From the IMG/VR virus record IMGVR_UViG_3300018428_000133, positions 1-27,668 of that record: a stretch of DNA of 27,668 nucleotides, one strand, 5' to 3'. Under the pieces are notes generated by a model. The model ran no database searches. It saw only the letters and a list, made by a program, of their open reading frames with translations, and was not told where the DNA came from. Origin of the DNA: a virus. Made by a program: the position numbers and the translations under genes. This document shows, piece after piece, positions 11,056 to 27,668 of this stretch (its first letter is position 1; every line of letters begins with the position of its first letter).

Positions 11056-11058
11056 TAG

Positions 11059-11463: not shown

Positions 11464-13074
11464 GATGGTTTAGTCACTGGTGCAACACCTACAACAGTTG
11501 TGGGCACAGATGATCAAAATTACAATGTTTTACAAATTGAAGTCAATGCATCTCCTGTTGCAATAATTACTAGCCAAAGTTTTACACCAAAAGTTGTTAT
11601 TCCAGGATTTAGTACACTGCGACCTGGAATAAATCTTTCTGCTAACAATATTTCAGGAGATGGTGCTCCTAAATTTTATGGAACAGCAGAAAAGGCAGAA
11701 GGACTTATTGTAAGTGGAAACACAGTTGCTGCAGGAAACTTCTTAAGAGGTGACGTTGCAAGTACTACTGCGTTTCCTATAAATGTTCAAAATAACACAG
11801 GTATTAATTATGGTATAAATGCTGAAATGAATATTGGTGTTGAAGGAAATGCAGGTATTGTACAACATAACATTGCAGGTTCTAGTATAGATTTCAAAGT
11901 AAAAAATGATGGCGTATTAAAAAATATTTTAAGATTAGATAGTGATTTAAAAGTTGGTATTAATAATGTTGCACCTGATGAAGCATTAGATGTCACAGGA
12001 AACATTAAATCAAGTGGTACAATTAAATCAACTAGCACAACTAACAGCACAAATTTTAGCACAGGTTCAATTACTACACTAGGTGGATTAGGAGTATCTC
12101 AAGATGTAAATATCGGTGGAACTTTAAATACTGTTGGTACTATTACAACTAGAAATATACAGCCTGATCAAAATAACTTAAGAAATATTGGAAGCTCAAG
12201 TGCAAAATATGCAAACATGTATGCTACTACATTTGTTGGAAACTTAACTGGTAATGTAAGCGGTACAGTAAGTGGCAGAGCAGGGAGTGCAGATAGAATT
12301 ACATCTGCTTCAACTTTTAGAATTGCAGGTGATATAAGTGCTCCTGACGTAGTTTATGATGGTCAAACAGGAGGATCATTAAAAGTTTTCAACACTACTA
12401 TTAGTAATGAAATTGTTGCTGGTAAAACAGCAGTGCTTGAATCACAAGCAGACGATGAATTTTTAATAAACAGAATAACAGGGGATACTGGACTTAAAAA
12501 GATCAGTAGACAAAATCTATTTGCAGCCATTAATGGTACAACGCCTGTCGGCACAGTTGTTCCTTTTGCTGGAGGATCTGCTCCTACAGGATGGTTATTA
12601 TGTGATGGTAGAGAAGTATTAATTAGTGCATATAACCAACTTTATAACGTAATTGGAAATAATTATAAACCGTCACCAGCTGTTGGGTATTTTGGATTAC
12701 CTGATTTAAGAGGTAGGTTCCCATTAGGTGCTGACAATATGGGCGGTACAAGTGCTGATACAGTTTTAGATGCAGCAGCAGATACAGTTGGTGCTAAGTC
12801 AGGTACTGAAACAATTTCTATACAAACTAAAAACTTGCCAGAACACGAACACGATCTAAGAGGCGAAAGCGGAGATCAATATTATGCAATTAGGGATGTT
12901 GCAGGCACACCAACTGATAACGATGCAATTATATATGATGCACCAACAGGTACAGGTGCTGGCCAAGCATATCCTGCAAGTGGTGGCGTGTTGACTGATG
13001 AAAGTTTAGGTACAGCAATAAATGTAATGAATCCATTCCTAACAATGAATTTTATAATATACACTGGAGGGTAA
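11059..13074 (+). CDS. Tail fibre protein with C-terminal phage tail collar domain, 671 aa
   Basis: This is a receptor-binding or short tail-fibre type protein. Residues 1-135 form a module shared with the next two genes (NFASATQPSTPVEGQLWYD; then LGDLWVDTDNQQLYLFSGSGW). The middle part is a fibrous shaft with a KYANMYATTFVGNLTGN unit typical of marine T4-like fibres. From about residue 493 there is a clear phage tail collar domain: GTVVPFAGGSAPTGWLLCDG, then GLPDLRGRFPLGADNMGG, as in T4 gp12. An H596-E-H598 motif follows, similar to the metal-binding HxH of gp12-type trimers. The start is supported by GGAGAG at 11047-11052. It is expressed late, probably from the promoter at 10416. It most likely acts at the baseplate or fibre tip in host attachment; the exact receptor is unknown. 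Confidence 0.88.
   Translation: MSYTIAYTDQANKGTITIEDNTINTETSLGLPGRNTTAYGTTIATNFLHLLENFASATQPSTPVEGQLWYDATPGVEQLKVFDGTNWVASGGLKKASSAPDASQSLLGDLWVDTDNQQLYLFSGSGWVLVGPEFSDGLVTGATPTTVVGTDDQNYNVLQIEVNASPVAIITSQSFTPKVVIPGFSTLRPGINLSANNISGDGAPKFYGTAEKAEGLIVSGNTVAAGNFLRGDVASTTAFPINVQNNTGINYGINAEMNIGVEGNAGIVQHNIAGSSIDFKVKNDGVLKNILRLDSDLKVGINNVAPDEALDVTGNIKSSGTIKSTSTTNSTNFSTGSITTLGGLGVSQDVNIGGTLNTVGTITTRNIQPDQNNLRNIGSSSAKYANMYATTFVGNLTGNVSGTVSGRAGSADRITSASTFRIAGDISAPDVVYDGQTGGSLKVFNTTISNEIVAGKTAVLESQADDEFLINRITGDTGLKKISRQNLFAAINGTTPVGTVVPFAGGSAPTGWLLCDGREVLISAYNQLYNVIGNNYKPSPAVGYFGLPDLRGRFPLGADNMGGTSADTVLDAAADTVGAKSGTETISIQTKNLPEHEHDLRGESGDQYYAIRDVAGTPTDNDAIIYDAPTGTGAGQAYPASGGVLTDESLGTAINVMNPFLTMNFIIYTGG
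13066..13071 (+). promoter_or_regulatory. Strong ribosome binding site (GGAGGG) for the second fibre gene
   Basis: GGAGGG lies inside the last codons of the upstream fibre gene, 9 nt before the ATG at 13081. No promoter box is seen in the 6-nt gap, so this gene appears to be translated from the upstream late transcript. Confidence 0.65.
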
Positions 13075-13080
13075 TAATTA

Positions 13081-13485
13081 ATGAGTTATAGATTAAACAG
13101 AACAGACGGTGAATTACTTGTTGATCTAACGGACGGTATTTTAGATAATACTACGACTGACATTACCCTTATAGGAAAAAATTACAAAGGTTTCGGCGAA
13201 TTCATAAATGAAAACTTTATCAAAGTTATGGAAAATTTTGCTTCCACTAGCCAACCGGCTAATCCAATGATTGGCCAATTGTGGTTTGATAAGCAAGACA
13301 ACAGATTAAAGGTATATGACGGAACATCATTTAGACCAGCGACCGGCAGTGTTGTAAGTAGTACACAGCCTAGCAATTTAAATGTTGGTGATATTTGGAT
13401 AGACAATGAAGAAAATAAATTGTATATCTGGGACGGAACAGATCTAACTCTTATAGGACCTGAATATAGCGCGGCACAAGGCAAA
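13081..13485 (+). repeat. Shared tail-fibre N-terminal module, copy 2
   Basis: It encodes ENFASTSQP, GQLWFDKQDNRLKVYDGTSF, GDIWIDNEENKLYIWDGT and LIGPEYS. These match the corresponding motifs in copies 1 and 3 in order and spacing. It shares an additional LIGKNYKGFGE-type segment with copy 3, making those two the closer pair. Confidence 0.75.
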
Positions 13486-15012
13486 ACAGGATTTGAAGTT
13501 GCATCGCAAATTGATTCATCAGATATTCAGAGAACTATATTAAAGTTGTTTATAGGTGGCAGTTTAGTAGGAATATTCAGTCCAGAAACTTTTTATGTTC
13601 CTGCAGAATTTGCAATTCCTAGTTATCCTCAAGATCCAGACGACATCCAAACGCCTAAAAGACAATTATTAGAAAAAGGATTTAATGTTGTAAATTCTGG
13701 ATTCTTGTATAATGGTACAGCAACAAGTGCAAAAGGCCTAGTAGATGATGCAGGTGTTGTTAAAACAAGTGACAACTTTATTCCGTCTGACGCAAACGGT
13801 TCTACAACAGGTAGTTTAAGAATTAAAAATAGTGCAGGATTAAGTGTAGGCATTGGTGAAACTGAATATGCTATTCTTAAAATTTCTGGCACTACTACAA
13901 TGCTTGAAACACAGCAGTCTAATGCTGATTTTGCTCTAAGAGTTAGATCAGGAAGTAGTTTTTATTCGGCACTTTATGTAGATACAGATGTACAAAAAAT
14001 GGGATTGTTTAAAACAAATCCTTCGTTCACACTCGATGTTGAAGGCGACGGAAAGTTTTCAAGTAATCTTACAGTGGGAGGCAACCTTACTGTAGAAGGA
14101 GATTCAACTTTTATTAATTCAACAACTTTAAGAGTTGAAGATAAAAATATTGAATTAGGACTTTTAGATGATAGTACAGAAGGTGACGACACAGCAGTAG
14201 ATGGTGGCGGCATAATTTTAAGAAGTAGTGAAGGTAGTAAAGATTTAACATGGGAACAATCTACAGCATCTTGGACAAGCAATCAAGACTTTGACCTAAT
14301 TAACACGCCAAGTAATCCTGTGCCAGCATTTAAAATCGACGGCACCGAAGTTTTAACAAAAACAACTTTAGGTGCTACAGTTATTAATAGTAGTTTAACT
14401 AGTGTCGGAACATTGAGCGAATTAACAGTAGACGACATTAATCTTAATTCTGCAACTATAACAAGAATAAATGGAACAGGTTTAAATTTTGTAGCGGGCG
14501 GCACAATAACAATTGACAGTCAGAATATAGATGGTGTAGCAACACCAACAACTAATAATCATGCTGCTAATAAATCTTATGTAGATACAGAGATAGCAAG
14601 TCAGGATGTAATTTTTAGTATAGATGCTACTGGATTATCAGATCCTAATGATATTACAACAGTAAATGGGCCTACAACAAGTATAGGCACAATTTTACAA
14701 ACACTTAAACCGGCAGCTAGTGTTGAAGACGGAACTGAAGCAAAATTATGGGTAATTTCATATTCTAGTAGTACAGTTAGTGGTATTACAGTTGATATTA
14801 CTACAAGTCCTGACACAAGCGGCGTTTTAACAAAATCCTTTGTTTCTGTTGACTCAAATGGTACACAAAATGAATCAGCAATCCAAGATATTTCACAAAG
14901 CAATGACGCAAGTGGTACAATTTCGTTGAATCCTGTAAGATACTTGTATATCTATACAGCAGGCGGAGGAACATGGAGCTTCACTAGTAGAACGCTTCAA
15001 AGCATAACTTAG
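13081..15012 (+). CDS. Tail fibre protein, 643 aa, paralogue with a different tip
   Basis: Residues 1-135 repeat the module of the preceding fibre (ENFASTSQPANPMIGQLWFD, then VGDIWIDNEENKLYIWDGT). The shaft contains beta-helix-like tandem short repeats (GKFSSNLTVGGNLTVEGDST, about residues 322-341). It is followed by RVEDKNIELGLLDD and a GGGI...W...WTS segment that is very common in marine T4-like fibre proteins. The C-terminal about 105 residues are a serine/threonine-rich beta segment ending in GGGTWSFTSRTLQSIT, with no collar or peptidase motif. It is probably a structural tail fibre or adhesin. It lies in the same transcript as the 671-aa gene and ends before a new late promoter box. The shared start and unlike end suggest duplication followed by replacement of the tip. 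Confidence 0.85.
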   Translation: MSYRLNRTDGELLVDLTDGILDNTTTDITLIGKNYKGFGEFINENFIKVMENFASTSQPANPMIGQLWFDKQDNRLKVYDGTSFRPATGSVVSSTQPSNLNVGDIWIDNEENKLYIWDGTDLTLIGPEYSAAQGKTGFEVASQIDSSDIQRTILKLFIGGSLVGIFSPETFYVPAEFAIPSYPQDPDDIQTPKRQLLEKGFNVVNSGFLYNGTATSAKGLVDDAGVVKTSDNFIPSDANGSTTGSLRIKNSAGLSVGIGETEYAILKISGTTTMLETQQSNADFALRVRSGSSFYSALYVDTDVQKMGLFKTNPSFTLDVEGDGKFSSNLTVGGNLTVEGDSTFINSTTLRVEDKNIELGLLDDSTEGDDTAVDGGGIILRSSEGSKDLTWEQSTASWTSNQDFDLINTPSNPVPAFKIDGTEVLTKTTLGATVINSSLTSVGTLSELTVDDINLNSATITRINGTGLNFVAGGTITIDSQNIDGVATPTTNNHAANKSYVDTEIASQDVIFSIDATGLSDPNDITTVNGPTTSIGTILQTLKPAASVEDGTEAKLWVISYSSSTVSGITVDITTSPDTSGVLTKSFVSVDSNGTQNESAIQDISQSNDASGTISLNPVRYLYIYTAGGGTWSFTSRTLQSIT

Positions 15013-15021
15013 TATGAAAGC

Positions 15022-15028
15022 ATAAATA
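15022..15028 (+). promoter_or_regulatory. T4-type late promoter box (ATAAATA)
   Basis: CATAAATAAC lies in the 40-nt gap between two fibre genes, 24 nt before the ATG at 15053. An AGGGG at 15040-15044 serves as ribosome binding site. A second, overlapping A/T-rich string (TTAAATAAATG) touches the start codon and is less likely to be a promoter. Confidence 0.65.
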
Positions 15029-15052
15029 ACATATACAATAGGGGTTAAATAA

Positions 15053-15451
15053 ATGGCATACACAATTAACAGATATACCGGAACCCAGCTAACGGTGGTT
15101 GAAGACGGTACAGTTGATCAAACTACTGATCTTAAACTGGTCGGAAAAAACTATGCTGGATATGGTGAAATACAAAATGAAAATTTTGTCTTTCTTTTAG
15201 AAAATTTTGCTGGTGCGAGCCAGCCACCAAAAGCACTTAACGGTCAAATTTGGTTTGATACTGCAAACAGCAAATTAAAATTTTATGATGGTACAAAATG
15301 GCGCACAACAGGCGGCGCAGAAGTAAGTTCTACTACCCCTGCAGGACTTGCTCAAGGTGATTTTTGGTGGGATACTGCCAATGAACAGTTGTATGCTTAT
15401 AATGGAACATCTTTTGTACTAGTAGGACCACAAGGTATTGGCGAAACAGTC
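15053..15451 (+). repeat. Shared tail-fibre N-terminal module, copy 3
   Basis: It encodes LVGKNYAGYGEIQNENFVFL, ENFAGASQPP, GQIWFDTANSKLKFYDGTKW and GDFWWDTANEQLYAYNGTSF. It is clearly homologous to the other two fibre starts and closest to copy 2. Confidence 0.75.
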
Positions 15452-16570
15452 ACTCAATTTCAAAGTGTTAACATAAGAGATAACACAGCAGTTTCAAGAC
15501 CTGTAATTAGATCTGTAATTAATGACGAAACTATTCATATTATTTCTGCACAGCAATTTACAATAGGTACAGAGGATGCTGCTACTTATCCAGGTTTTGA
15601 TGTTATCCGTCAGGGTATTACCCTTAAAAATACAATTAACAGCACAGGCGGCGTGACATCTACTGCACACAGATTTTGGGGCACAGCATCAAATGCTGAA
15701 AAATTAAACGGTTTAGATGCAACAAACTATGTTGTTTCGAGACCAGGTGAAACAACAGAATTTACAACACTTACTGAGTTTGCAGATATTGGACTTGCAG
15801 TTGGAGACTCTAATGATTTAGCAATTAAAATTGTTGACGATAACAAAGGATTAATTGCTAATGAAGTTGGCCAAGCAATGTATTTCCAAGTAAACAACTC
15901 AAGTGCTGCACAAAAAATGCCAATGAGGCTTTCTGCAAATGCAATATTACCTGGCTTTGCTAATGTATCAAGCTGGACAGGAACAGAAACAGTAGACATT
16001 GGTGCAAGTTCTAACAAATTTTCTACAATGTATGCAACAACATTTAACGGTAGTGCAACAGAAGCACAAACATTAGATGTTGGTGGTACAGCAAGATCAG
16101 CATCAACAGCTGCAACTTCTAATACTATTGCAGCAAGAGACGGAGCAGGACATTTATATGCAAATGTATTCCAAGGAACTGCTACATCTGCACAATTTGC
16201 TGACTTAGCAGAAAAATACACAGCAGACAAAGACTATGAACCAGGTACGGTATTAGTATTTGGTGGAGAAGCAGAAGTCACAGAATGCACAATGTTCTGT
16301 GATCAAAGACTAGCTGGTGTTGTTTCAACTAATCCAGCACATTTAATGAATGATAGCATTGACGGTGTAGCTATAGCACTAAAAGGTAGAGTGCCTTGTA
16401 AAGTAGAAGGTGCTGTAAAGAAAGGTGATTTACTAGTCACTGGTCCTACAGCAGGTACAGCTACATCATTGCGTCCTGATAGCGCATCACCAAATGCATG
16501 GTGTGTAGTGGGCAAAAGTCTAGAAGATAACAATGATCCAGGAATCAAAATTATTGAAGTTGCTGTATAA
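15053..16570 (+). CDS. Tail fibre protein with peptidase-G2-like C-terminal domain, 505 aa
   Basis: Residues 1-135 are the third copy of the fibre docking module (ENFAGASQPPKALNGQIWFD, GDFWWDTANEQLYAYNGTSF, VGPQG). The middle has the same fibre signatures as its paralogues (FWGTASNAEKLNG; KFSTMYATTFNGSATEAQ). The C-terminal about 130 residues begin with QFADLAEKYTADKDYEPGTV and contain KGRVPCKVEGAVKKGDLLVT. This resembles the peptidase G2 / intramolecular-chaperone type end found on many phage fibres, which can be removed by self-cleavage in characterised members. The catalytic residues cannot be assigned with confidence here, so activity is an inference. It is expressed from its own late promoter and is a likely adhesin. 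Confidence 0.82.
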   Translation: MAYTINRYTGTQLTVVEDGTVDQTTDLKLVGKNYAGYGEIQNENFVFLLENFAGASQPPKALNGQIWFDTANSKLKFYDGTKWRTTGGAEVSSTTPAGLAQGDFWWDTANEQLYAYNGTSFVLVGPQGIGETVTQFQSVNIRDNTAVSRPVIRSVINDETIHIISAQQFTIGTEDAATYPGFDVIRQGITLKNTINSTGGVTSTAHRFWGTASNAEKLNGLDATNYVVSRPGETTEFTTLTEFADIGLAVGDSNDLAIKIVDDNKGLIANEVGQAMYFQVNNSSAAQKMPMRLSANAILPGFANVSSWTGTETVDIGASSNKFSTMYATTFNGSATEAQTLDVGGTARSASTAATSNTIAARDGAGHLYANVFQGTATSAQFADLAEKYTADKDYEPGTVLVFGGEAEVTECTMFCDQRLAGVVSTNPAHLMNDSIDGVAIALKGRVPCKVEGAVKKGDLLVTGPTAGTATSLRPDSASPNAWCVVGKSLEDNNDPGIKIIEVAV

Positions 16571-16610: not shown

Positions 16611-17570
16611 ATGGCAGTTAGCGTCGGAGATGAAATTCAAGCAGCTCAATATAACGGCTTGCAAAGTAGAGTAGATACAATTCTTGGTGTAGGGTCAGGT
16701 CAAAGCGGTTATGGCCAATCACTAGCAAGTTCACAAGTATCAGTAGGTGCTGTTGTTCAAGCCGCTGACATGGATAATCTTAGAACTGATATAAACAAAA
16801 TTAAAAATCACCAAGCAGGTACTGATGCATCTATAGGCAATATTGCTGTTGGACAAATCATTGGTGCTGATAGAAGTGAAACTAACATAGGTACAGGTGT
16901 TTATCAAACAGACGAAGGTTTTAACGATTATGATACTGCAATTACAGATGTAGAAGGAAACTTATTTGACATTGCAGAAAGTTCTGTGGAAGCAAAACTT
17001 ACCAGCACTAGAAGTACATCATGGGGTGGCGGTGGCGGTGGTACCGTGACACATACATTTACAGTGACTTTTAGTGATGCCAACCAAAGAAGATATTTTT
17101 TCAACAGCGGAGGCGAAATACGTTTCAGTGCAAGTTTAACAGGTAGCTCAGGATCTAAATACAATAATTGGAATACACTGTTAACTAACATGGGTACAAT
17201 TAAGTTTGGATACACAGCTACAACAGCTACAGGATCAGGAACTGCCCAAGCAATTGGTAATTATGATTTGACAACAAGTTATCAAACAATTTTTCAAAAA
17301 AACGGTAGTGGTGTTTATGCAGAAAACCAATATCAACTTGATGCAAGAGCTGACAGCAGCACAGTGCTAAGATTTAGAGTAAGTTTTGAAGATAACGACT
17401 TAGGAGATCAACAACCAGTTGGCCCCCAAGGTATTCAACCAAACCCAGCAGGACCAGCAGTTGACGAACCTGTGACAGGTACACTAACAAGCACTATACA
17501 ACAACTAAGAGCTACTGGATCAAATGTTGAAGTGACGTCACCTGCGTTCTCAACAACTTCAAACCTATAA
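16611..17570 (+). CDS. Virion structural protein, 319 aa
   Basis: The N-terminal third consists of alternating helical repeats of the form VGxxIQAAQYNGLQSRVDTI and VGAVVQAADMDNLRTDINKI, separated by GVGSGQSGYGQSLASSQVS. I recall this GSGQSGYGQ signature from structural proteins of T4-like marine phages. A polyglycine hinge (WGGGGGG, near nt 17025-17040) leads into a beta-rich domain with RRYFFNSGGEIRFSASLTGS. The protein has no enzyme motif and no membrane segment. It is the last gene of the late block, has its own late promoter, and is followed by the sigma70 promoter of the next module. The most likely role is a tail or fibre accessory protein; the exact position in the virion is unknown. 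Confidence 0.75.
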   Translation: MAVSVGDEIQAAQYNGLQSRVDTILGVGSGQSGYGQSLASSQVSVGAVVQAADMDNLRTDINKIKNHQAGTDASIGNIAVGQIIGADRSETNIGTGVYQTDEGFNDYDTAITDVEGNLFDIAESSVEAKLTSTRSTSWGGGGGGTVTHTFTVTFSDANQRRYFFNSGGEIRFSASLTGSSGSKYNNWNTLLTNMGTIKFGYTATTATGSGTAQAIGNYDLTTSYQTIFQKNGSGVYAENQYQLDARADSSTVLRFRVSFEDNDLGDQQPVGPQGIQPNPAGPAVDEPVTGTLTSTIQQLRATGSNVEVTSPAFSTTSNL

Positions 17571-17637: not shown

Positions 17638-17973
17638 ATGGATAAAAGGTTGTTAGACGCAGTTGAATTTGCAAATTATTCAAGAACACTATACAATCAG
17701 AAAAAGTTAGCAAAACAAAAATTTTTAGATGCGTGTATTTTTTATTATAATGCTGGAAAGTTCCATGTAGATATTAATTTGATTACATATTGTATAGATT
17801 TAAAAAATGGCTCTATTCTTTTAGATTCAAATCAAAATCCTATCAAAGTAGAAGATGCAAAAAACTTTTTAGAAAATATAAAAAACTTGTACCATACAGC
17901 TTTACAACAGTATTATGATGAATATACTGAAATAACAAGCAGTAAAACAGTGCAAGGAATTGTTAATGTCTAA
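17638..17973 (+). CDS. Conserved phage-type hypothetical protein, 111 aa
   Basis: This is a small, mostly helical, lysine- and tyrosine-rich protein. It has no cysteine cluster, membrane segment or catalytic motif. I do not recognise a characterised family, although small proteins of similar design (an N-terminal 'LLxAVEFANY' helix and a C-terminal 'YHxALQQYYDEY' helix) are familiar from T4-like marine phages. It is the first gene after the sigma70 promoter and has a strong ribosome binding site (AAAGGAG at 17624-17630, 7 nt spacing), so it should be made early and abundantly. The next gene starts inside its last codons (8-nt overlap). Confidence 0.75.
   Translation: MDKRLLDAVEFANYSRTLYNQKKLAKQKFLDACIFYYNAGKFHVDINLITYCIDLKNGSILLDSNQNPIKVEDAKNFLENIKNLYHTALQQYYDEYTEITSSKTVQGIVNV
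17954..17958 (+). promoter_or_regulatory. Ribosome binding site deciding the start at 17966
   Basis: AAGGA is 7 nt before the ATG at 17966. A TTG at 17960 in the same frame would lie only 1 nt after it, so the ATG is the likelier start. Confidence 0.6.
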
Positions 17974-18775
17974 AGGATGTTTGTTATTTGCATTTAACAA
18001 TGAAAAAATAGACTATGTAAAACAGGCAGTCTATTGTGCAAAAAAGATTCAAAAACATTTAAACGTTCCTGTGTCACTTGTAAGTGATATAGAAGTTGAT
18101 AATCCTGTGTTTGATAAAGTTATAGCTTTTGACAAAGAACTTGCTTACTCGATGAAAACTTATCGAAGTCATACAACTTCTTTTAAACTTTCTTTCAAAA
18201 ATGTTGCAAGGATTTATAGTTATGATTTAACACCATATGATTCTACTCTTGTTTTAGATACAGATGTTTTGATATGTAATAATGAGATTGCAAAATGTTT
18301 TGACAGCAACGCAGATCTTATGATGTATAGTAATGCACAGGATATAGGAAACTATATAGATAAAAAAGAATTTGAATGGATAAGCGATACAGGGTGTAAG
18401 TTTTATTGGGCTACTTGTTTGTACTTCAAAAAAACTAAAACAAATAAATTGTATTTTGATTTAGTTCAACACATTTATGATAATTGGGGATATTATAAAA
18501 CAATTTACCAAATACAAAACGCAGTATATAGAAATGACTTTGCATTTAGCATAGCAGCTCATATTATGAACGATCATTCAAAAGGAGATTTTATAGGCGA
18601 AATGCCTGGCACTTTACATTATTCTATTGATAAAGATATTATTCAAAGTATAAATGAAGACGATTTATTGTTTTTAATACACAATCCACAAAAAGGCAAA
18701 AACTTTTTTCCTGTGCGGACAAAGAATATGACAGTGCATTGTATGAACAAGTTTGATTTGGATAGATTGATATGA
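17966..18775 (+). CDS. Putative GT-A-fold glycosyltransferase, 269 aa
   Basis: It probably transfers a sugar from a nucleotide-sugar donor. Residues 1-40 form a GT-A-like start (CLLFAFNNEKIDYVKQAVYC, VSLVSD), and residues 94-103 carry TLVLDTDVLI. The D98-T-D100 is a DxD-type metal and nucleotide-sugar binding motif. A late HCMNKFDLD (H258) may be the C-terminal metal ligand seen in GT8-like enzymes (inference). There is no signal peptide or membrane span, so it is cytoplasmic. The start at 17966 is chosen over TTG 17960 because of the spacing to AAGGA. The gene overlaps its neighbours by 8 and 4 nt. The next gene is a diverged relative, so the two may act in sequence or together. Acceptor and donor are unknown. 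Confidence 0.72.
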   Translation: MSKGCLLFAFNNEKIDYVKQAVYCAKKIQKHLNVPVSLVSDIEVDNPVFDKVIAFDKELAYSMKTYRSHTTSFKLSFKNVARIYSYDLTPYDSTLVLDTDVLICNNEIAKCFDSNADLMMYSNAQDIGNYIDKKEFEWISDTGCKFYWATCLYFKKTKTNKLYFDLVQHIYDNWGYYKTIYQIQNAVYRNDFAFSIAAHIMNDHSKGDFIGEMPGTLHYSIDKDIIQSINEDDLLFLIHNPQKGKNFFPVRTKNMTVHCMNKFDLDRLI

Positions 18776-19524
18776 AACAAGGATATCTAATATACGCACA
18801 AGGCGACAAACACTTGAGGTATGCTATTGCATGTGCTGAAAGTTTAAAATCTTTTGATCAAAAGCCTATTTGTTTAGTTAGTGATAAAGACATTGCATCT
18901 ACAGTGTTTGATAATGTTGTTGTTGTAGAAAAAAACAGTGATAAGTTTCACGTCAAAAATAGATCAAAATTAATTGAATATTCTCCATTTGAAGAAACTA
19001 CAGTAATAGAAAGCGATTGTTTGATTACACAAAGTTTAGAAAACTGGTGGACAAAAAATAAAGACTGTGACTTAAAATTTATAAGTCAAGCATATACATA
19101 TAGGCAAGAACCTTTAGATATTTCATATGATAGAAAAACTTGGGCACAAAATGATTTACCTAATTTATATGTTGCTTGTCACTACTTTAAAAAGACAGAA
19201 TTTACAAAAAAGTTTTTTGATCTAGTTTACGAAATCAACACAAATGAAGAATTATACAAAGGTCATTTACCTAACAGAAGTCCCAAAGTTCCTAGTATGG
19301 ATGTAGCAATTTGTTTGGCTACAAAATTACTTGATTGCAATAACAAAGTTGCATACACAGGAGATGATCCTATGTTTATACACATGAAACCATATTCTCA
19401 AGGATTAGCAGAGCCTGAAGAAAATTGGTCAGAAAAGTTAGGTTTTTACAAAAACGGTAATGACGTATATATTGCAAATTTTAAACAACAAGGGATTTTG
19501 CATTTTATAGAGGATGTTGTTTAA
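18772..19524 (+). CDS. Putative glycosyltransferase, paralogue of the preceding gene, 250 aa
   Basis: The layout follows the 269-aa neighbour: GYLIYAQGDKHLRYAIACAE at the start, PICLVSD near residue 38, and VIESDCLIT at 78-86 where the neighbour has VLDTDVLI. The DxD position is therefore E80-S-D82, which may change metal or donor binding. Later features include VACHYFKKTEFTKKFFDLVY, similar to the neighbour's ATCLYFKKTKTNKLYFDLVQ, and histidines at 204 (FIHMK) and 244. It is cytoplasmic by sequence. It begins with an ATGA overlap and ends with a 1-nt overlap with the next gene. It is probably a sugar transferase or a catalytically altered partner of the upstream enzyme. Confidence 0.68.
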   Translation: MKQGYLIYAQGDKHLRYAIACAESLKSFDQKPICLVSDKDIASTVFDNVVVVEKNSDKFHVKNRSKLIEYSPFEETTVIESDCLITQSLENWWTKNKDCDLKFISQAYTYRQEPLDISYDRKTWAQNDLPNLYVACHYFKKTEFTKKFFDLVYEINTNEELYKGHLPNRSPKVPSMDVAICLATKLLDCNNKVAYTGDDPMFIHMKPYSQGLAEPEENWSEKLGFYKNGNDVYIANFKQQGILHFIEDVV

Positions 19525-20009
19525 TGTTTGTATATTACAATAGTGAAACTAGAGAAATAACATCAATATCAGCATCACAAAATAGTGAGGGTCCTTTTGT
19601 TGAAAAAGAAAAACAAGAAGTTCAGCCATTTATTGACGGTGAAAAAAATTTCATTGATTATATTATAGATGAACAAAGAAATATAGTAAACAAACACGAA
19701 ACTGTTATACCTTTTGATATAAATCAAAAAATACACAAACTAGAAGAAAGACCAAATGCAGATTTTACAGTAGTGCATACTAAAGATGGCTGGCAGTTTA
19801 AAAAAACATCTAGTGTAAATGATAATTTATATTTTATAATAACAGAAAAAAATAATCCTAATATATTATATAGAACTATGTATTTTTATGCAAGCCAAAT
19901 AGAAAATGAATTTTTAGTTCCTTTTGAAAACAATAAAGAAAAAAATTTAGATTGTAGCATATGGATACTAAACAAAAGTTTTCCTATATGTAGTTTGGAG
20001 ATAAGATGA
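19524..20009 (+). CDS. Hypothetical protein, 161 aa
   Basis: I do not recognise this protein. It is acidic and lysine-rich with a beta-like C-terminal half (NLYFIITEKNNPNILYRTMY, CSIWILNKSFPICSLEIR). It contains no DxD, no cysteine cluster and no membrane helix. Its start codon overlaps the previous stop by 1 nt, and its end overlaps the next gene by 4 nt, so it belongs to the operon. It may be a phage structural or accessory factor for the surrounding transferases, but this is only inferred from position. Confidence 0.65.
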   Translation: MFVYYNSETREITSISASQNSEGPFVEKEKQEVQPFIDGEKNFIDYIIDEQRNIVNKHETVIPFDINQKIHKLEERPNADFTVVHTKDGWQFKKTSSVNDNLYFIITEKNNPNILYRTMYFYASQIENEFLVPFENNKEKNLDCSIWILNKSFPICSLEIR

Positions 20010-22600
20010 GTAGAAAATTTAAAGTTTATGATTATGATATAATTTATCTCAGCTATGATGAACCAAATGCTGAAGAAAACTATTATGATCTAAAACAGCT
20101 TGTACCGTGGGCAAAACGTGTGCATGGTGTAGAAGGTTCAGATGCTGCACACAAAGCCTGTGCTGATTTAGCAGAAACAGAAAGATTTATTACCATAGAC
20201 GGTGATAATAAAATACATCACAGTTTTATAAATGAAATTTTACATTTTAAAGACGATGTAGATTTAAGCAAGTGTGTTGTCAGTTGGAGCGGATACAACA
20301 TTATTAACGGGTTGACATACGGTAATGGTGGGATAAAATGTTGGCCTACAGAAATGGTCAAGCATATGAAAACACATGAAAATGCAGACCCTAACAATTT
20401 AAAAGCACAAGTTGATTTTTGCTGGGATTTACAATATTTACAAGTTGACAAAACTTACAGTTATGTGCATAATAATGCTACACCGCAACAAGCATGGAGA
20501 GCTGGATTCCGCGAAGGTGTTAAGATGAGTTTGATTGAAGGTTTACCAGCAGATCCTAAACAATTTAATGAACAAATACCTAAGAAAAATTTAGATAGAT
20601 TAAAAATATGGGCAACTCTAGGTTCAGATGTAAAGAACGGAAAGTGGGCTGTCTATGGAGCCAGAGAAGGTTGTTATAAAACTATGTGTACTGATTGGGA
20701 TCATGTACATGTAAGAGATTTTGAATATTTAAACAATCTATGGAATACAGAGTACAGTAAGATAGAAGAAGACAAACTTGATTACGAAATCACAGGGTTA
20801 GGATATACACTTAATAACGATCTTGATTTAGGAATACCAGAAGACATCTATGACGAAAAACAAAGCAAGTTTTTCAAAAGTGTATATGTTCCCCCGCAAC
20901 GTACACCCCAAGACTTTCTAACAACAGAAGAATCATCTAATTATGATATTGTAATGATTTCATATAATGAACCTAACGCTGAAAAAAATTGGGAAAATTT
21001 AAAACAAAAATTTCCTCGTGCTAAAAGAGTACATGGTGTAAAAGGAATTCCAAAAGCTCATGTAGAAGCTGCAAAATTATGTACTACAGATTTAATTTGG
21101 ATAGTAGATGGAGATGCAGAAATTGTAAATGATTTTGTTTTTGATTATGTATCTCCTGAACATGAAAAGGACTACGTTAAAGTATGGCGTAGTATCAATC
21201 CTATAAACGGTCTTGAATACGGCTATGGTGGTGTAAAACTATTTCCTAGATTAGCTACACTGAACATGGATATCACAAAACCGGACATGACGACAAGTAT
21301 CAGTAGACATTTTAAACCAATTAAGGTTGTTAGTAATATTACAGCATTTAACACTGATGCGTTTAGTGCTTGGAAAAGCGGTTTTAGAGAATGTTGTAAA
21401 CTAGCTAGTGCTGTTATAGATAGACAAAAGCAAGATGAAACAGACCATAGATTAGACGTGTGGTGTAGTGATGCAGATAACACAATACCATTTTCTAAAT
21501 TTGCTGTTGAAGGAGCAAGAGCAGGTAGAGAATATGGTGAAATTAACAAAGACAATATAGAAAAGCTCAATCTTATAAATGACTTTGACTGGCTAGAGCA
21601 ACAATTTGATTATGCATACTCCAAAGAAGCTATATTAGAGTCAACAATAAAATCTGAAGAAATTGTCGACTTGCTAGATCGTTTTGAATATATGTACGAA
21701 GGACTTAGCGATGTAAGAAGGTTATATAATGATAAAGACATAAGCAGTGTGTTTAAGATAGCCAACAATGAAGAACTACGTAAAGCAGTCGTTGAAAAGA
21801 ATTTACATAGTATCTTTAGAATTATAGGAACCAATGATGATTTACGCAAGGCAGTGCTCGAACATAACTTTTATAGCATGGCACGCCTGTTGCCCGAAGC
21901 AGCAGATGAGTTTAGGTTATTACAAAATGATAAACATGCACTATGGCGTGTTCTAGAAAAATATACAGGAAGTTTATTTGTAAAGCCATTGAAAACTTTA
22001 TACCAAGAAGAAAATTTTGACAAGGATTGTATTAGTAGAGGACAATTAAAAAGTAAAAAATGGTTAGTAGACAAATTAATTCAGTGCAATTTGGATTTAG
22101 GTGTAGTTTTTTTATGTGCAGGTTGGTATGCAACTATTGTTCCTATGATACAAGAAGCAAACATAAAATTTAACAAGATTCGTAGTTTTGATATAGATCA
22201 AGATGTATGGAATATTGCTGAAACTTTTAATAGGCCGCTGACTGCTGACGATTGGCGATTCAAAGCGCAAACATTAGATATTCATGATATTGAATATGAC
22301 AACTTTCATTATTCTACTATAAAGAGTGACGGTAGTATTGAACAGTGCAAAGATAGTGCCAACACAATTATTAATACTAGTTGTGAACATATCCAGAATT
22401 TTAATGATTGGTATAACAAAATACCACAAGGAAAACTTATATGTTTACAAAGCAACAATTATATTGCTATAGATGAGCATGTTAATTGTGTAAGCAGTTT
22501 AGAAGAATTTGCAAAACAAACACCTATGTCAGAACTTTTATATGAAGGTGAATTAGATTTAGAAAAATATAAGAGATTTATGCGAATAGGATACAAATGA
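20006..22600 (+). CDS. Trimodular protein: two glycosyltransferase-like domains plus methyltransferase-like domain, 864 aa
   Basis: Residues 9-250 and 313-540 are tandem copies of one domain. Each has YDI[IV]x[IL]SYxEPNAE, K/RRVHGVxG, a DGD motif (D65-D67; D368-D370) and a NGLxYGxGG[IV]Kxx[PW] signature (101-114; 401-414). They look like GT2-like nucleotide-sugar enzymes. Residues 570-640 hold short helical repeats (EELRKAVVEKNLHSIFRI / DDLRKAVLEHNFYSMARL). From about 675 to the end is a Rossmann-like segment with VVFLCAGWYATI, then IRSFDIDQDVWNIAE, then NTSCEHI (790-796), resembling class I SAM methyltransferases found in phages. A GGAG at 19997-20000 precedes the ATG. It overlaps both neighbours by 4 nt. 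It could assemble and methylate a sugar, but substrates are unknown. Confidence 0.7.
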   Translation: MSRKFKVYDYDIIYLSYDEPNAEENYYDLKQLVPWAKRVHGVEGSDAAHKACADLAETERFITIDGDNKIHHSFINEILHFKDDVDLSKCVVSWSGYNIINGLTYGNGGIKCWPTEMVKHMKTHENADPNNLKAQVDFCWDLQYLQVDKTYSYVHNNATPQQAWRAGFREGVKMSLIEGLPADPKQFNEQIPKKNLDRLKIWATLGSDVKNGKWAVYGAREGCYKTMCTDWDHVHVRDFEYLNNLWNTEYSKIEEDKLDYEITGLGYTLNNDLDLGIPEDIYDEKQSKFFKSVYVPPQRTPQDFLTTEESSNYDIVMISYNEPNAEKNWENLKQKFPRAKRVHGVKGIPKAHVEAAKLCTTDLIWIVDGDAEIVNDFVFDYVSPEHEKDYVKVWRSINPINGLEYGYGGVKLFPRLATLNMDITKPDMTTSISRHFKPIKVVSNITAFNTDAFSAWKSGFRECCKLASAVIDRQKQDETDHRLDVWCSDADNTIPFSKFAVEGARAGREYGEINKDNIEKLNLINDFDWLEQQFDYAYSKEAILESTIKSEEIVDLLDRFEYMYEGLSDVRRLYNDKDISSVFKIANNEELRKAVVEKNLHSIFRIIGTNDDLRKAVLEHNFYSMARLLPEAADEFRLLQNDKHALWRVLEKYTGSLFVKPLKTLYQEENFDKDCISRGQLKSKKWLVDKLIQCNLDLGVVFLCAGWYATIVPMIQEANIKFNKIRSFDIDQDVWNIAETFNRPLTADDWRFKAQTLDIHDIEYDNFHYSTIKSDGSIEQCKDSANTIINTSCEHIQNFNDWYNKIPQGKLICLQSNNYIAIDEHVNCVSSLEEFAKQTPMSELLYEGELDLEKYKRFMRIGYK

Positions 22601-23112
22601 AACAGAATCTAATTGTAATAGATAATTTTTATGACGATCCTGATACTATTAGAACATTTGCTTTAGAACAAGATTTTAATGTAAAAGGTAATTACCCAGG
22701 TAAACGTACAAAAAGTTATCTAAGTGCAGAAGCAAAGGAAAAAATTCAGTCTATACTAGGAGAAGTATCTTGGCACGATATAGATGGTGGTACAGGCAGT
22801 TTCCAATATACTACTGCGTTAGAAACTAGCTGGATACACAAGGATACTACAGAATGGGCAGGAGTTTGCTTTCTCACACCAAATGCACCATTAGACAGTG
22901 GGACAATATTGTTTAAAGATAGAAAAATAGATAATGAAAAAGAAGTTTATGATTTGACAAAATTTGAAAAAGACACTATAATATCAAATGTATACAATAG
23001 GTTAATATTGTATAGAGGAGACCTGTTGCATAAAAGCAATAATTATTTTGGTTTAGATAGAAATGATGCTCGATTGTTCCAAGTTTTCTTTTTAGGAGAA
23101 TTATATGCTTGA
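22597..23112 (+). CDS. 2OG-Fe(II) oxygenase-like protein, 171 aa
   Basis: The size and motif order fit a small 2-oxoglutarate and iron-dependent dioxygenase of the DUF6445-like type. The start LIVIDNFYDDPDTIRTFAL is the typical opening, and YPGKRTKSY follows. The candidate metal triad is H81-x-D83 (WIHKDTTEW) and H145 (GDLLHKS), and R159 (DARLFQVFFL) is placed to bind 2-oxoglutarate. Such enzymes hydroxylate proteins, nucleobases or small molecules. There is no signal peptide. It starts inside the last codons of the 864-aa gene (4-nt overlap) and overlaps the following gene by 8 nt. The family call is fairly firm; the substrate is unknown. Confidence 0.75.
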   Translation: MKQNLIVIDNFYDDPDTIRTFALEQDFNVKGNYPGKRTKSYLSAEAKEKIQSILGEVSWHDIDGGTGSFQYTTALETSWIHKDTTEWAGVCFLTPNAPLDSGTILFKDRKIDNEKEVYDLTKFEKDTIISNVYNRLILYRGDLLHKSNNYFGLDRNDARLFQVFFLGELYA

Positions 23113-23326
23113 GGAAATGACTATTAGACAACTACAGCAAGAATGTGCTAGAGCTCTTTCTACCATGGAAGCAACAAACAACAACATTTACCAGTTTAAT
23201 AAACAAGCATTTCATAATAGCCACAATTGGTATAAAGCAGTAATTACATGGTATATAGAACAATATGGTGACTTACCTAGCAAAACTGGACCTGGTACAA
23301 AAGTAAGGTTGGTTTTAGATGTATAA
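23105..23326 (+). CDS. Small hypothetical protein, 73 aa
   Basis: I do not recognise this gene. The N-terminal half is helical (IRQLQQECARALSTMEATNN), the middle is rich in N, H and W (FHNSHNWYKAVITWYIEQYG), and the end is basic to beta-like (PGTKVRLVLDV). It has one cysteine. The start at 23105 is preferred because AGGAGA lies about 6 nt upstream, inside the oxygenase gene; a downstream ATG at 23117 has a poorer spacing. It lies directly before a SPASM radical SAM gene with an 8-nt overlap. That position is compatible with a modified peptide or an accessory protein, but the sequence lacks an obvious leader and core division, so this remains speculative. Confidence 0.6.
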   Translation: MLEEMTIRQLQQECARALSTMEATNNNIYQFNKQAFHNSHNWYKAVITWYIEQYGDLPSKTGPGTKVRLVLDV

Positions 23327-24383
23327 ATTAGAAGATATAAAAACTATTCATTTGGAAGTCACACAAAATTGTCAAGCAAGTTGTCCTATGTGTGATCGTA
23401 ATATGAATGGCGAAGGAATAAATCCACATATCAATTTAGACGAACTGTCTTATAAAGACTGCACAAAGATATTTAATGCATCCTTTATAAAACAATTAAA
23501 TACTATGTATATGTGTGGCAACTTAGGAGATCCTATTGTTGCAAGAGACACACTTGAAATATTCCAATACTTTAGAACACATAATCCTAACATGTGGTTG
23601 AGTATGAACACTAATGGAGGAGCAAAAGATGTCGACTGGTGGAAAAAACTTGCGATGGTATACGGACGTATGGGTGCTGTTATTTTTAGCGTGGATGGTC
23701 TTGAGGATACTAATCACATTTACAGACAAGGTGTAGTTTGGAAAAATGTAGAACGCAACATGCGAGCATTTATTGATGCTGGCGGCAGAGCTCGTTGGGA
23801 CTTTTTAATTTTTGAACACAATCAGCATCAAGTTGAACAAGCCGAAGCTCTTGCTAAAGAGTGGGGTGTTGAAAAATTTATGAAAAAGAAGACTGGAAGA
23901 TTCATTGACACAAATTCAAATAAAAAAGAAAAGCATCAAGCCAAAGACCGTAAAGGCCAAGATTCGGCAGAACTTAAAAAGCCGGAAGCAAAATACCAAA
24001 ACAAAGCACTTACTAAACAGGAAAAACTTTTAGAAAAATACGGTAGCATGGACAAATACTATGATGCTGTTCCTATTGTTTGTAAGGTAAAACAAGAAGG
24101 CAGTCTTTTTATAACAGCAGAAGGACTTGCTATGCCTTGTTGCTGGACCGCTGGTCGTATGTACAAATGGTGGCATAAAGATCCTAAAGTAGAACAAATA
24201 TGGGATTTTATAGACAAAGATTCTTTAGATGCAAAAAAAGGTTTAGATAAAGTTTTTGCCACAGGTATATTTGAAAATATACAAGACAGTTGGACAAAAA
24301 GTAGTTGTGCAGAAGGTAAACTTAAAGTTTGTGCAACTAAATGCGGTGCAGAATGGGATCCTTTTATGGAGCAATTTAAATGA
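23319..24383 (+). CDS. Radical SAM protein with C-terminal SPASM-type cysteines, 354 aa
   Basis: This is a SAM-cleaving radical enzyme. The iron-sulfur motif is C18-x3-C22-x2-C25 (NCQASCPMCDR). GNLGDP (68-72) and FSVDGLED (123-130) follow as expected for the radical SAM barrel. The C-terminal part carries extra cysteines at C255, C274-C275 (MPCCWT), C330, C338 and C342, consistent with a SPASM domain binding auxiliary clusters. A charged lysine-rich insertion lies at about 197-240. SPASM enzymes usually modify peptides or proteins, but some act on sugars or other substrates. It overlaps the 73-aa gene by 8 nt and the next gene by 4 nt. The class is firm; the reaction is unknown. Confidence 0.88.
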   Translation: MYKLEDIKTIHLEVTQNCQASCPMCDRNMNGEGINPHINLDELSYKDCTKIFNASFIKQLNTMYMCGNLGDPIVARDTLEIFQYFRTHNPNMWLSMNTNGGAKDVDWWKKLAMVYGRMGAVIFSVDGLEDTNHIYRQGVVWKNVERNMRAFIDAGGRARWDFLIFEHNQHQVEQAEALAKEWGVEKFMKKKTGRFIDTNSNKKEKHQAKDRKGQDSAELKKPEAKYQNKALTKQEKLLEKYGSMDKYYDAVPIVCKVKQEGSLFITAEGLAMPCCWTAGRMYKWWHKDPKVEQIWDFIDKDSLDAKKGLDKVFATGIFENIQDSWTKSSCAEGKLKVCATKCGAEWDPFMEQFK

Positions 24384-25190: not shown

Positions 25191-26603
25191 ATGACAGATA
25201 AAACTAAAATTTCAGAAACATTTTGTGCTTTACCTTGGCTACACCTTAGCAGTAGACCAGATGGTAAGATGAGAACATGCTGTACGTCAAATGCAAGCAG
25301 TGTGCAAGATCCAGATTCTAATATAAAAATTGGAGGAGGTGAAGTCGGTGTTGTAAAAAATGATGACGGTGTACCAGCAAACTTTAATCACACTTCTTTA
25401 GAAGAAGCATGGAATTCGTCTTACATGCGTAATGTTCGTAAAATGATGTTGCGCGGTGAAAAACCTGCAAGTTGTCTTAAGTGCTACAAGGAAGAAGAAT
25501 CAGGACATTTATCAAAACGTAATTGGGAGACAGAATACTGGGGTCATAGATATGACCTACAACAGTTAGTTGACGAAACTAAAGAAGATGGTAGTATTCC
25601 TCCTAAGATACGCTACATAGATCTTAGAATGGGTACAAAGTGCCAATTAGCCTGTGTAATGTGTAGTCCTCATGATAGTTCGGGTTGGATCAAAGACTGG
25701 CAAGATATGTATCCACAGATACAAAATGAAAAGCTAAAGAACACAAGTGGCTGGCATAACAAAGGACAAAATCACGGAGCAAGTTATAATTGGCATAAAA
25801 ACAATCCACGTTTTTGGAAAGAGCTTATGGAGCAAATTCCACACATGTATCAATTGTATTTTGCAGGCGGAGAAAGTTTAGTAATTGACGAACACTACGA
25901 ACTTCTTGAAGAATGTATCAAGCGTGGACATGCAAAAAATATAGAGCTACGTTATAATTCAAATGCAGTCGAATGGCGAGAAGATTTATTTGACCTTTGG
26001 GCAGAATTTAAACGTGTGCGTTTCCATTATTCAATAGATGCACTAGGTAGACAGAATGATTACATACGCTATCCTAGTCTATGGGATCATCAAGCAGAAC
26101 AAATGTGGAAACTAGATGCTACAGGACCAAATGTTGAAGTCACAACAGCAATAACTATTATGGCTCTTAATATTGCTTATATTCCTGATTTTATTCAATG
26201 GAAAGTTGAACAAGGATTTTCAAAATGGAATAAATGGCCTTTGGGTGCTGGTGGTATAAACATGCACTTTGCATATTGGCCACCTCAATTAAATGTAAAG
26301 ACATTACCGTTAGAACTTAAAAAACAAATTACAGACAAATATGAAAATGAATTTTATCCTTGGCTAAACGAAAACTGGCAAAAGTTTACAGGTGTTAAAG
26401 AAGCAGGTATTACTAAAGAACAATGGCTGAATGCTCCGTACGGTAAAAAACGATATCAAGGTATAATAAATTTTATGAATGCAGAGGATTGGTCAGCACG
26501 TATGCCAGAATTTAAAGAGTGGATAAAGTTAGTTAACAAACAACGTGGCTTTGATGACTTTGAAGAAATATTCCCAATATTCAAAGGAGTTATAAATGAG
26601 TAA
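25191..26603 (+). CDS. Radical SAM protein with N-terminal twitch-type cysteine cluster, 470 aa
   Basis: The protein has two iron-sulfur regions. Residues 1-110 hold an N-terminal cluster-binding region (FCALPWLHLS with C12, C30-C31, and SCLKCYKEEESG with C95 and C98), the pattern of twitch-containing radical SAM proteins. The core motif is C151-x3-C155-x2-C158 (KCQLACVMCSP), followed by FAGGESL (225-231) and a SIDA segment (281-284). The order, auxiliary region first and barrel second, is typical of a family frequent in marine phages whose reaction is unknown. Here the gene follows an SGNH hydrolase-like gene after a 16-nt gap that lacks a strong ribosome binding site, and it overlaps the next gene by 8 nt. 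The next gene is a homologue. Confidence 0.85.
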   Translation: MTDKTKISETFCALPWLHLSSRPDGKMRTCCTSNASSVQDPDSNIKIGGGEVGVVKNDDGVPANFNHTSLEEAWNSSYMRNVRKMMLRGEKPASCLKCYKEEESGHLSKRNWETEYWGHRYDLQQLVDETKEDGSIPPKIRYIDLRMGTKCQLACVMCSPHDSSGWIKDWQDMYPQIQNEKLKNTSGWHNKGQNHGASYNWHKNNPRFWKELMEQIPHMYQLYFAGGESLVIDEHYELLEECIKRGHAKNIELRYNSNAVEWREDLFDLWAEFKRVRFHYSIDALGRQNDYIRYPSLWDHQAEQMWKLDATGPNVEVTTAITIMALNIAYIPDFIQWKVEQGFSKWNKWPLGAGGINMHFAYWPPQLNVKTLPLELKKQITDKYENEFYPWLNENWQKFTGVKEAGITKEQWLNAPYGKKRYQGIINFMNAEDWSARMPEFKEWIKLVNKQRGFDDFEEIFPIFKGVINE

Positions 26604-27668
26604 ATGCACATTTTGTCCTTTACCTTGGAATAGTGTGAACATGCGTAATAACGGTGATTTACGTATATGTTGTAATACAAACAGCTACACAGAAAATAGA
26701 GGAATTTTACGCAAGGAAGATAAAACACCTTTCAATGCTGGTAAAGACGACTGGAACGAAGCAAGAAATTCAAAAGTTCTAAAAGAAGTGCGAGCAGCGA
26801 TGATGAAAGGCGAATGGCATCCTGAGTGCGAAAGATGCAGACAAGAAGAAGTTAATGGTATTAGAAGTCGTAGAGAATATGAAAATGACGATTGGGGAAA
26901 ATGGTATGGTGATATTTCATTAGAAAAAGTTTTGCCTCACACACAAGAAGACGGGACAATCGAAACAGAAAAATTACCAATTGACTTTTTAGATGTTAGA
27001 TATGGTAATTTTTGTAATTTAAAATGTCGTATGTGCGGTCCAACAGATAGTCATCAATGGTACGATGATCATGTTGCAATCTCCGGAGGTACAGGATTTA
27101 GAGACAGTAGCGGTAGAGTGGATCTTGTAAAAAATGAAAAAGGGCGTTGGACTACTGATGTATTTGATTGGTTTCAAAATAATAAAACATATTGGGATAA
27201 TTTTGAAGAACATGCTCCTAATGCAAAAAAACTATACATTGTTGGAGGTGAACCTTTAATAATTGAAGAACATCAAGAAAGTTTAGAACGTTTGGTCGCA
27301 AGTGGAAAGAGTCATCAAATACAACTAGAATATAATAGCAATCTTACAATGGTTCCTGATAGGCTAGTGCATTTATGGGAACAGTTTAAACAAATTCGTA
27401 TTGGTGTAAGTATTGATGGCATAAATGATGTATTTAATTATCAGAGAACACCTGCTAAATTTAGTGCTGTTTATAAAAACATGATGCGATTGCAAGAAAA
27501 TGATAGGATAAATTTAAAGGCATGGTTTGCCTTTACAGTGACTCCATTTAATGTTTTTCATTTGCCTGAGTTTATGAAATGGAAACTAACAGAAAGCGGA
27601 CTTACAAAATTTAATCCTGTTGACGGTGCTAGACCTGTGATAACACCGCATATGTGTCATAGTCCTAA
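26596..27668 (+). CDS. Radical SAM protein with N-terminal twitch-type cysteines (3' end beyond the window; 357 complete codons seen)
   Basis: This is a homologue of the previous protein and is open to the window edge. The N-terminal region has C4/C7 (MSKCTFCPLPWNSVN), C25-C26 (LRICCNT) and C78/C81 (PECERCRQEE). The radical SAM motif is C140-x3-C144-x2-C147 (GNFCNLKCRMCGP), followed by VGGEPLI (GGE at 217-219) and SIDG (272-275). AAAGGAG precedes the ATG and the start overlaps the previous stop by 8 nt. Its longer insertion after the motif (about 150-205) differs from the 470-aa protein. It probably works with its neighbour in the same modification pathway, each enzyme on a related substrate or step (inference). 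Confidence 0.82.
   Translation, partial: MSKCTFCPLPWNSVNMRNNGDLRICCNTNSYTENRGILRKEDKTPFNAGKDDWNEARNSKVLKEVRAAMMKGEWHPECERCRQEEVNGIRSRREYENDDWGKWYGDISLEKVLPHTQEDGTIETEKLPIDFLDVRYGNFCNLKCRMCGPTDSHQWYDDHVAISGGTGFRDSSGRVDLVKNEKGRWTTDVFDWFQNNKTYWDNFEEHAPNAKKLYIVGGEPLIIEEHQESLERLVASGKSHQIQLEYNSNLTMVPDRLVHLWEQFKQIRIGVSIDGINDVFNYQRTPAKFSAVYKNMMRLQENDRINLKAWFAFTVTPFNVFHLPEFMKWKLTESGLTKFNPVDGARPVITPHMCHSP

Follow-up and report, generated by a model that had tools for sequence, protein, structure and literature searches.

Gene content of the window

The stretch of DNA analyzed here, called the window, is the whole of a 27,668-nucleotide IMG/VR virus record (IMGVR_UViG_3300018428_000133), and the end of the record cuts the gene for rSAM_B. 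ORFs were called mechanically, and the families named F0 to F100 are Louvain clusters of our own. No tRNA genes were found in the window, which holds the following features.

1..10419, + strand: very long virion structural ORF, 3472 aa, open at its 5′ end
10441..16570, + strand: fibre/collar-type structural genes (starts at 10441, 11059, 13081 and 15053), assigned from ORFs and sequence features
16611..17570, + strand: F22, fibre/virion-like protein, 319 aa
17638..17973, + strand: F16, small protein of 111 aa, after the fibre gene and ahead of the two GT8 genes
17960..18775, + strand: GT8-type (glycogenin-like) glycosyltransferase, D100 and D102 conserved
18772..19524, + strand: second GT8-type glycosyltransferase, same family as 17960..18775
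19524..20009, + strand: 161-aa cassette protein, in the same slot in viral loci
20006..22600, + strand: F5/F2-type protein, 864 aa, with two putative GT-A-like repeats and a C-terminal class I methyltransferase fold
22597..23112, + strand: DUF6445/PHROG 1644 protein, 171 aa
23105..23326, + strand: 73-aa protein, conserved in 67 to 68 viral loci
23319..24383, + strand: rSAM_F1, radical SAM protein (PF04055) with C-terminal auxiliary cysteines, 354 aa
24380..25174, + strand: 264-aa protein with a GDSL-like GCSYS start, seen by eye only
25191..26603, + strand: rSAM_A (N_Twi_rSAM), 470 aa, with an N-terminal twitch (C12/C30/C95/C98) and then a CX3CX2C barrel
26596..27668, + strand: rSAM_B, second N_Twi_rSAM, 357 aa visible, open at the contig end

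The structural gene that starts at 15053 belongs to a family that recurs in other loci. A profile of both window GT8 proteins and their relatives matched glycogenins (1.8e-5), and a protein similar, by eye, to the 161-aa cassette protein lies at L185:17400-17891. The 864-aa protein was modeled with a pLDDT of 91.2. In a fold search, residues 668 to 864 matched NodS-type methyltransferases (Z score of 16), and this methyltransferase end alone was reported. Both N-terminal F5 repeats contain a conserved DGD motif, and on the strength of this motif they are predicted to be GT-A-like; the GT2 match of the protein was weak (E = 0.023), profile comparison gave no link between the F5 repeat and GT8, and the repeat had no PDB match. 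Homologs of the 864-aa protein are present in Bdellovibrionota cassettes. The 264-aa protein had no Pfam, NCBIfam or credible PDB match and has about 10 relatives within the arrays described below; an SGNH label for it was rejected, as it found no support in profile searches.

rSAM_F1 carries CX3CX2C near its N terminus and further cysteines at its C terminus, and residues 13 to 164 match PF04055. These features agree with the first-pass annotation, which had described a third radical SAM protein with C-terminal auxiliary cysteines at this position. rSAM_F1 scored below every NCBIfam cutoff (best, TIGR04317 at 1e-12). Against NF033640, the family of rSAM_A and rSAM_B, it reached 38.4 bits over the barrel part only, where 170 are needed, and is thus not a member. 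The 73-aa protein shows 54 to 80% identity across viral loci and often lies directly before the F1 gene.

rSAM_A and rSAM_B belong to one uncharacterized radical SAM family

The reading frames of rSAM_A and rSAM_B overlap by a few bases and run in the same direction as that of rSAM_F1. Both proteins are members of a single known, functionally uncharacterized family, NCBIfam NF033640 (N_Twi_rSAM; curated cutoff, 170 bits). The model matched rSAM_A over its full length (415.7 bits; 2e-124) and rSAM_B over its visible part (306.0 bits; 4.1e-91); relatives of rSAM_B are about 440 to 460 aa long. The two proteins align with each other over 368 aa (31% identity, 50% positives, E = 4e-61). The earlier suggestion of a homologous adjacent pair, for which both genes had been correctly delimited, is therefore borne out. 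Two findings could have spoken against it, an alignment confined to the cysteine motifs or placement in unrelated families. Instead, the alignment runs along the entire shared length and both proteins fall in NF033640.

In rSAM_A, the motifs FCALPW (C12), TCC (C30, C31) and CLKC (C95, C98) are followed by the barrel motifs CX3CX2C (C151, C155, C158) and GGE (226-228). rSAM_B has FCPLPW, ICC, CERC, CNLKCRMC and GGE in the same order. Together with the NF033640 matches, these motifs substantiate the claim that auxiliary cysteines precede the barrel in both genes. Among 90 array relatives, C12, C30, C95, C98, C151, C155 and C158 (rSAM_A numbering) are invariant, as are G226-G227-E228, N258, S281 and R293. 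A Pfam SPASM match lies ahead of the barrel in rSAM_A (residues 12 to 99) and, slightly below the cutoff at 20.0 bits, in rSAM_B. All three window radical SAM proteins exceeded the 29.5-bit PF04055 cutoff in the genome search, while two of the three were marginally below it by hmmscan (28.5 and 29.0 bits).

The N-terminal position of the twitch is not new, since NF033640 is already a curated family with the same domain order. That model names the architecture only; the array layout, the partner radical SAM proteins and the sharing between phages and Bdellovibrionota lie outside it. No characterized enzyme of the N_Twi_rSAM family was found in the sources searched.

An AlphaFold2 model of rSAM_A (mean pLDDT, 92.4) gives the predicted general fold and not the substrate. 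In a structure search, the barrel of the model resembled SkfB, CteB, SuiB, BlsE, viperin and anSME (Z scores of about 11), and SkfB was the sole match of the rSAM_A family profile among PDB sequences (1e-7). SkfB, CteB, SuiB and anSME share both the barrel fold and the auxiliary cluster cysteines with rSAM_A. In these enzymes, however, the twitch/SPASM region follows the barrel, while in rSAM_A and rSAM_B it precedes it.

The pair opens a longer radical SAM array

Two viral scans yielded 105 and 55 relatives. Each of the 37 related virus records encodes 4 to 25 PF04055 proteins over the whole record, although these records are partly nonindependent owing to strong overlap (e.g., L026/L027 and L032/L033/L034). 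The highest counts were 25 in 76.8 kb, 23 in 179.6 kb, 21 in 170 kb and 16 in 330 kb. IMG/VR records are fragments, and for some of the top-ranking ones (G023) no capsid gene was seen in the fragment; the 170-kb record with 21 radical SAM proteins also has a gp23 match. Up to 14 NF033640 members occur per virus record, and flanks contain up to 8 N_Twi-type proteins per 21 kb by a loose profile that may catch other radical SAM proteins. The three radical enzymes in under 5 kb that the first-pass annotation had counted are present, but with 4 to 25 in related records they are not the whole set. The pair in the window is the cut-off start of a longer radical SAM array that lies beside tail-fibre genes.

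Orthologs of rSAM_A were found at 84 distinct viral loci, 76 of which have at least 4 kb of upstream sequence and 49 at least 9 kb downstream. An F1 gene lies upstream of rSAM_A in 69 of the 76, immediately so in 51, and further CX3CX2C ORFs follow rSAM_A in all 49 (median, 6). A B-like gene occurs within 10 kb of rSAM_A in 33 of the 49 loci and is the very next gene in 9, and a third radical SAM family, F7, lies near rSAM_A in 16. The idea that the genes always travel together did not hold up, given a B-like gene next to rSAM_A in so few loci. We likewise rejected a strict rSAM_A-rSAM_B pair as the unit of the array, as the link between F1 and rSAM_A is tighter. The order fibre-F16-GT8-GT8-F25-like-F5 was seen in 22/22 viral loci that have F16. 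The conserved set thus comprises rSAM_A, rSAM_B, F1, the GT-A-like/methyltransferase protein and the GT8 proteins, and relatives have more radical SAM proteins and sugar- or group-transfer enzymes downstream.

Array content differs between loci. Other genes encode PP-loop proteins, an SDR, UDP-glucose dehydrogenase, carbamoyltransferase and DegT aminotransferase, as well as amidinotransferase/dimethylargininase-like, Asp/Arg hydroxylase and nitroreductase families. The variability would suit a selfish or nonfunctional expansion of a mobile radical SAM family with little function for the phage, but rSAM_A, rSAM_B and rSAM_F1 are under purifying selection (dN of 0.08 to 0.15 versus dS of 1.1 to 2.9; dN/dS of about 0.05 to 0.1) and the catalytic motif, with CX3CX2C and GGE-like elements, is kept in 471/471 N_Twi proteins of the arrays. 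We consider this the least credible of the explanations weighed here.

The many radical SAM genes, combined with amidinotransferase/dimethylargininase-like, carbamoyltransferase, aminotransferase, PP-loop and hydroxylase genes, also resemble a biosynthetic cluster, which could make a RiPP-like or other small product (a toxin, a siderophore-like compound or a signal) released during infection or predation. A RiPP maturase would be expected beside a conserved precursor with a variable core, and a search of the arrays for conserved ORFs of 20 to 84 aa with ATG, GTG or TTG starts gave no convincing precursor and no precursor-like small-ORF family. The loci that were inspected likewise revealed no exporter or NRPS/PKS gene, and a small product seems unlikely. 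The 73-aa protein, which alone among small coding-strand proteins was widely conserved, was rejected as a precursor or substrate: it is uniformly conserved, and no relative was found in cultured phages or in the chromosomal Bdellovibrionota loci.

Phages that carry the array

The phage context proposed for the pair was upheld. The first 2000 aa of window ORF1 are similar to structural proteins from RaK2-like jumbo phages and from Salicola phage SCTP-2, and T4-type gp23 was found in 8 of 17 related records tested. One related record has a major capsid protein (MCP) 71% identical to that of Vibrio jumbo phage 2.275.O; in another, the MCP is 69% identical to that of Stenotrophomonas phage DLP6 and 63% to that of Pelagibacter phage Mosig. 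These two kinds of MCP place such genes in at least two phage lineages. In the window, as in a pelagimyophage-type host recognition cluster, tail fibres and GT8 genes occupy a variable island of what is, judging from gene order and from gp23 in relatives, a T4-type phage. vrlC was not identified in the window, which is too short to place the array relative to vrlC/gp14.

Cultured phages are poor in these genes. Four that were checked had 0, 0, 2 and 6 PF04055 matches, with no radical SAM genes found in the jumbo relatives 2.275.O and SCTP-2. The only cultured-phage matches to rSAM_A and rSAM_B came from Vibrio phages K566 and K567, alongside a single-cell virus, at 20 to 29% identity. K566 and K567 carry a small array, which in K566 has five N_Twi members and six PF04055 matches; their members are about 20% identical to rSAM_A, and no A-type ortholog was found there. 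The K566 array (L138, 161548-168284) is partly annotated as hypothetical. Pelagibacter phage Mosig EXVC030M (Kyanoviridae) has radical SAM genes, annotated as MoaA-like, between the tail fibres and VrlC, in a host-recognition region (L136, ~55 to 72 kb) that also contains carbamoyltransferase, aminotransferase, nitroreductase, methyltransferase and Asp/Arg hydroxylase genes. This set of enzymes resembles that of the arrays, but Mosig has only two PF04055 matches and no N_Twi member.

Bdellovibrionota relatives and origin of the cassette

The closest cellular relatives of rSAM_A are in Bdellovibrionota MAGs, mostly at 52 to 62% identity. At a threshold of 1e-50, and with phyla as given in the record titles, 74 of 240 sampled genomes in the phylum of G047 were positive, compared with 2 of 299 in the phylum of G284, one of them the center genome. 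N_Twi members numbered 4 to 42 per genome in 18 genomes, although in three of them (L149, L161 and L163) the contigs may be phage sequence assigned to the wrong bin. Contigs of up to 936 kb and housekeeping genes in the inspected flanks (L153, L184/L185 and L183) indicate that the Bdellovibrionota loci are chromosomal. Among 21 bacterial loci, F1 was present in 17, F7 in 17 and both in 16; an F5/F2-type gene was present in 14, and a B-like gene lay nearby in 6. The bacterial core therefore consists of the radical SAM genes rSAM_A, F1 and F7, mostly with an F5/F2 gene and often beside GT2 glycosyltransferases. NTP transferase, choline-kinase-like and GDSL genes also adjoin these cassettes, as in the array of G060 (main contig, 2.66 Mb), where one NTP transferase, one choline-kinase-like, three GDSL and one GT2 gene were seen.

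Several loci deserve separate mention. In a Bdellovibrionia MAG, 30 kb flanked by housekeeping genes (G043:C1:745513-774880; L181-L182) contain about 15 radical SAM genes, N_Twi members among them, plus one amidinotransferase-like and two Asp/Arg-hydroxylase-like genes; no obvious glycosyltransferase was seen in this chromosomal array. On contig 21 of G055 (Bdellovibrionales; L185:10060-18799), rSAM_A and F7 are followed by F22, F16, two GT8 genes, a 163-aa gene and F5. The order from the fibre-like F22 to F5 is that of the window itself, the F22 homolog (L185:14388-15314) is 31% identical and the F16 homolog 32% identical, and the neighboring genes, named by eye, are pheT-, trmD- and rnhB-like. 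The contigs at L145, L146, L149, L151, L161 and L163 were assigned to MAGs from Rickettsiales, Gammaproteobacteria, Neisseriaceae, Planctomycetota, Chloroflexi and Acidimicrobiaceae, but they appear to be phage sequence in the wrong bins.

In the rSAM_A tree, phage and Bdellovibrionota proteins form one clade (support, 100/100), and with rSAM_B as the outgroup, the phage proteins are nested inside the bacterial diversity. The few rows under other phyla (L146, L149, L161 and L151) appear to be strays or phage contigs that were binned wrongly. The rSAM_B clade likewise holds phage and Bdellovibrionota members (support, 99/93). In the F7 tree, made by a quick method and with weaker support (88), the main phage clade lies beside the same Bdellovibrionota loci (L170, L152, L148 and L154). 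Since both clades contain Bdellovibrionota orthologs, the split between rSAM_A and rSAM_B is older than their presence in these phages, and the earlier idea that the pair was duplicated in a phage must be abandoned. The trees favor, but do not prove in direction or host, a transfer of the cassette from a Bdellovibrionota-type donor to phages.

Possible products of the array

The phages that bear the array probably build or decorate an unusual surface molecule. As the main reading, with a probability of roughly 0.45, we propose multistep radical decoration of a surface glycoconjugate in the host-recognition region. This reading rests on the neighbors (GT8, GT2, methyltransferase and nucleotide-sugar enzymes) and on the location beside fibre genes. 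Of the genes that a glycan-biosynthesis cluster might contain, the window has GT8 and the methyltransferase fold; UDP-glucose dehydrogenase, carbamoyltransferase and DegT come from other arrays, and bacterial cassettes adjoin GT2, NTP transferase, choline-kinase-like and GDSL genes. The array would lie within the tail-fibre region, where host recognition is encoded, of a large marine phage of the T4 type, and a Bdellovibrionota-type donor would have supplied the cassette. In the course of an infection, the enzymes would act in series on one surface-exposed glycoconjugate: GT8/GT2-type enzymes would lay down sugars, and the methyltransferase would cap them. The barrel cluster of each radical SAM enzyme would make a 5′-deoxyadenosyl radical while the predicted twitch cluster positions or oxidizes the substrate, and each enzyme would thereby add a C-H-activation step (oxidation, epimerization, cross-linking or group addition). 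The product may decorate virion fibres or the infected-cell surface and so alter adsorption or block superinfection, and differences in how many radical SAM genes, and which ones, a phage carries would give each lineage its own decoration.

Against this reading, the nearest solved barrels are those of peptide maturases (SkfB, CteB, SuiB and anSME), which favors peptide or protein substrates. In addition, the GT-A assignment of the F5 repeats is motif based, the fibre and GT8 block next to the bacterial core is a single case (L185), and the G043 array has no obvious glycosyltransferase. The barrel similarity underlies an alternative in which protein itself is the target of the radical SAM enzymes, with a virion fibre such as F22 or a surface adhesin as the likeliest candidate. 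This would resemble twitch/SPASM peptide chemistry (thioether, C-C bond or epimer formation), with the GT8 pair glycosylating the same fibre. The invariant fibre-F16-GT8-GT8 order in 22/22 viral loci and its recurrence with rSAM_A and F7 on one Bdellovibrionales chromosomal contig are consistent with such a role, as is the recurrence of Asp/Arg-hydroxylase-like genes, whose known members act on protein side chains. F22 is a poor general substrate, however: most bacterial cassettes are without F22 and F16, and of 240 sampled genomes a single one, G055, has F16. We therefore rejected the F22 fibre as a universal substrate. Direct protein modification is somewhat doubtful in our estimate and ranks below the glycoconjugate.

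Phages elsewhere apply radical and glycosyl chemistry to DNA, and the carbamoyl-, methyl- and PP-loop-type enzymes present here could in principle hypermodify phage DNA bases against host nucleases. However, the core is found on Bdellovibrionota chromosomes without an evident DNA modification system, the phage copies sit in the tail-fibre region, and the nearest barrels are, again, peptide maturases. Protection of phage DNA is thus highly improbable as the function of the array.

Relation to known systems and significance

A pelagimyophage host recognition cluster contains GT8 genes, suggested to alter the host O-chain, and radical SAM cassettes (PMC7029224, 2020). That report gives the cassettes a single sentence, which names neither a family nor a count nor a function, and the phage in the window seems to be a relative of RaK2/2.275.O-type jumbo phages. 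Elsewhere, radical SAM genes have been reported as abundant or annotated phage genes, without analysis (PMC7150976, PMC9301287). Subscription papers and preprints aside, no paper was found on the arrays, on their sharing with Bdellovibrionota or on their function, and literature searches on radical SAM proteins in Bdellovibrio or jumbo phages and on the N-terminal twitch likewise yielded nothing on this system. The arrays also differ from the peptide maturase systems in that no precursor peptide was found in them.

The arrays represent a large uncharacterized set of radical enzymes with a permuted order of the auxiliary cluster, with up to 25 radical SAM genes per related virus record versus few or none in the cultured phages checked. 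Vibrio phages K566 and K567 and Pelagibacter phage Mosig are cultured entry points for related gene sets. More tentatively, large marine phages of the T4 type and Bdellovibrionota may share an undescribed multienzyme radical SAM pathway, in which a core of three radical SAM enzymes with GT-like/methyltransferase proteins, possibly extended to as many as 20 to 40 radical SAM genes, would lead to a new class of radically modified surface glycoconjugate, or to a fibre modification, for attachment to host or prey. The shared cassette connects host recognition by phages with the biology of the Bdellovibrionota in a specific way that can be put to the test.
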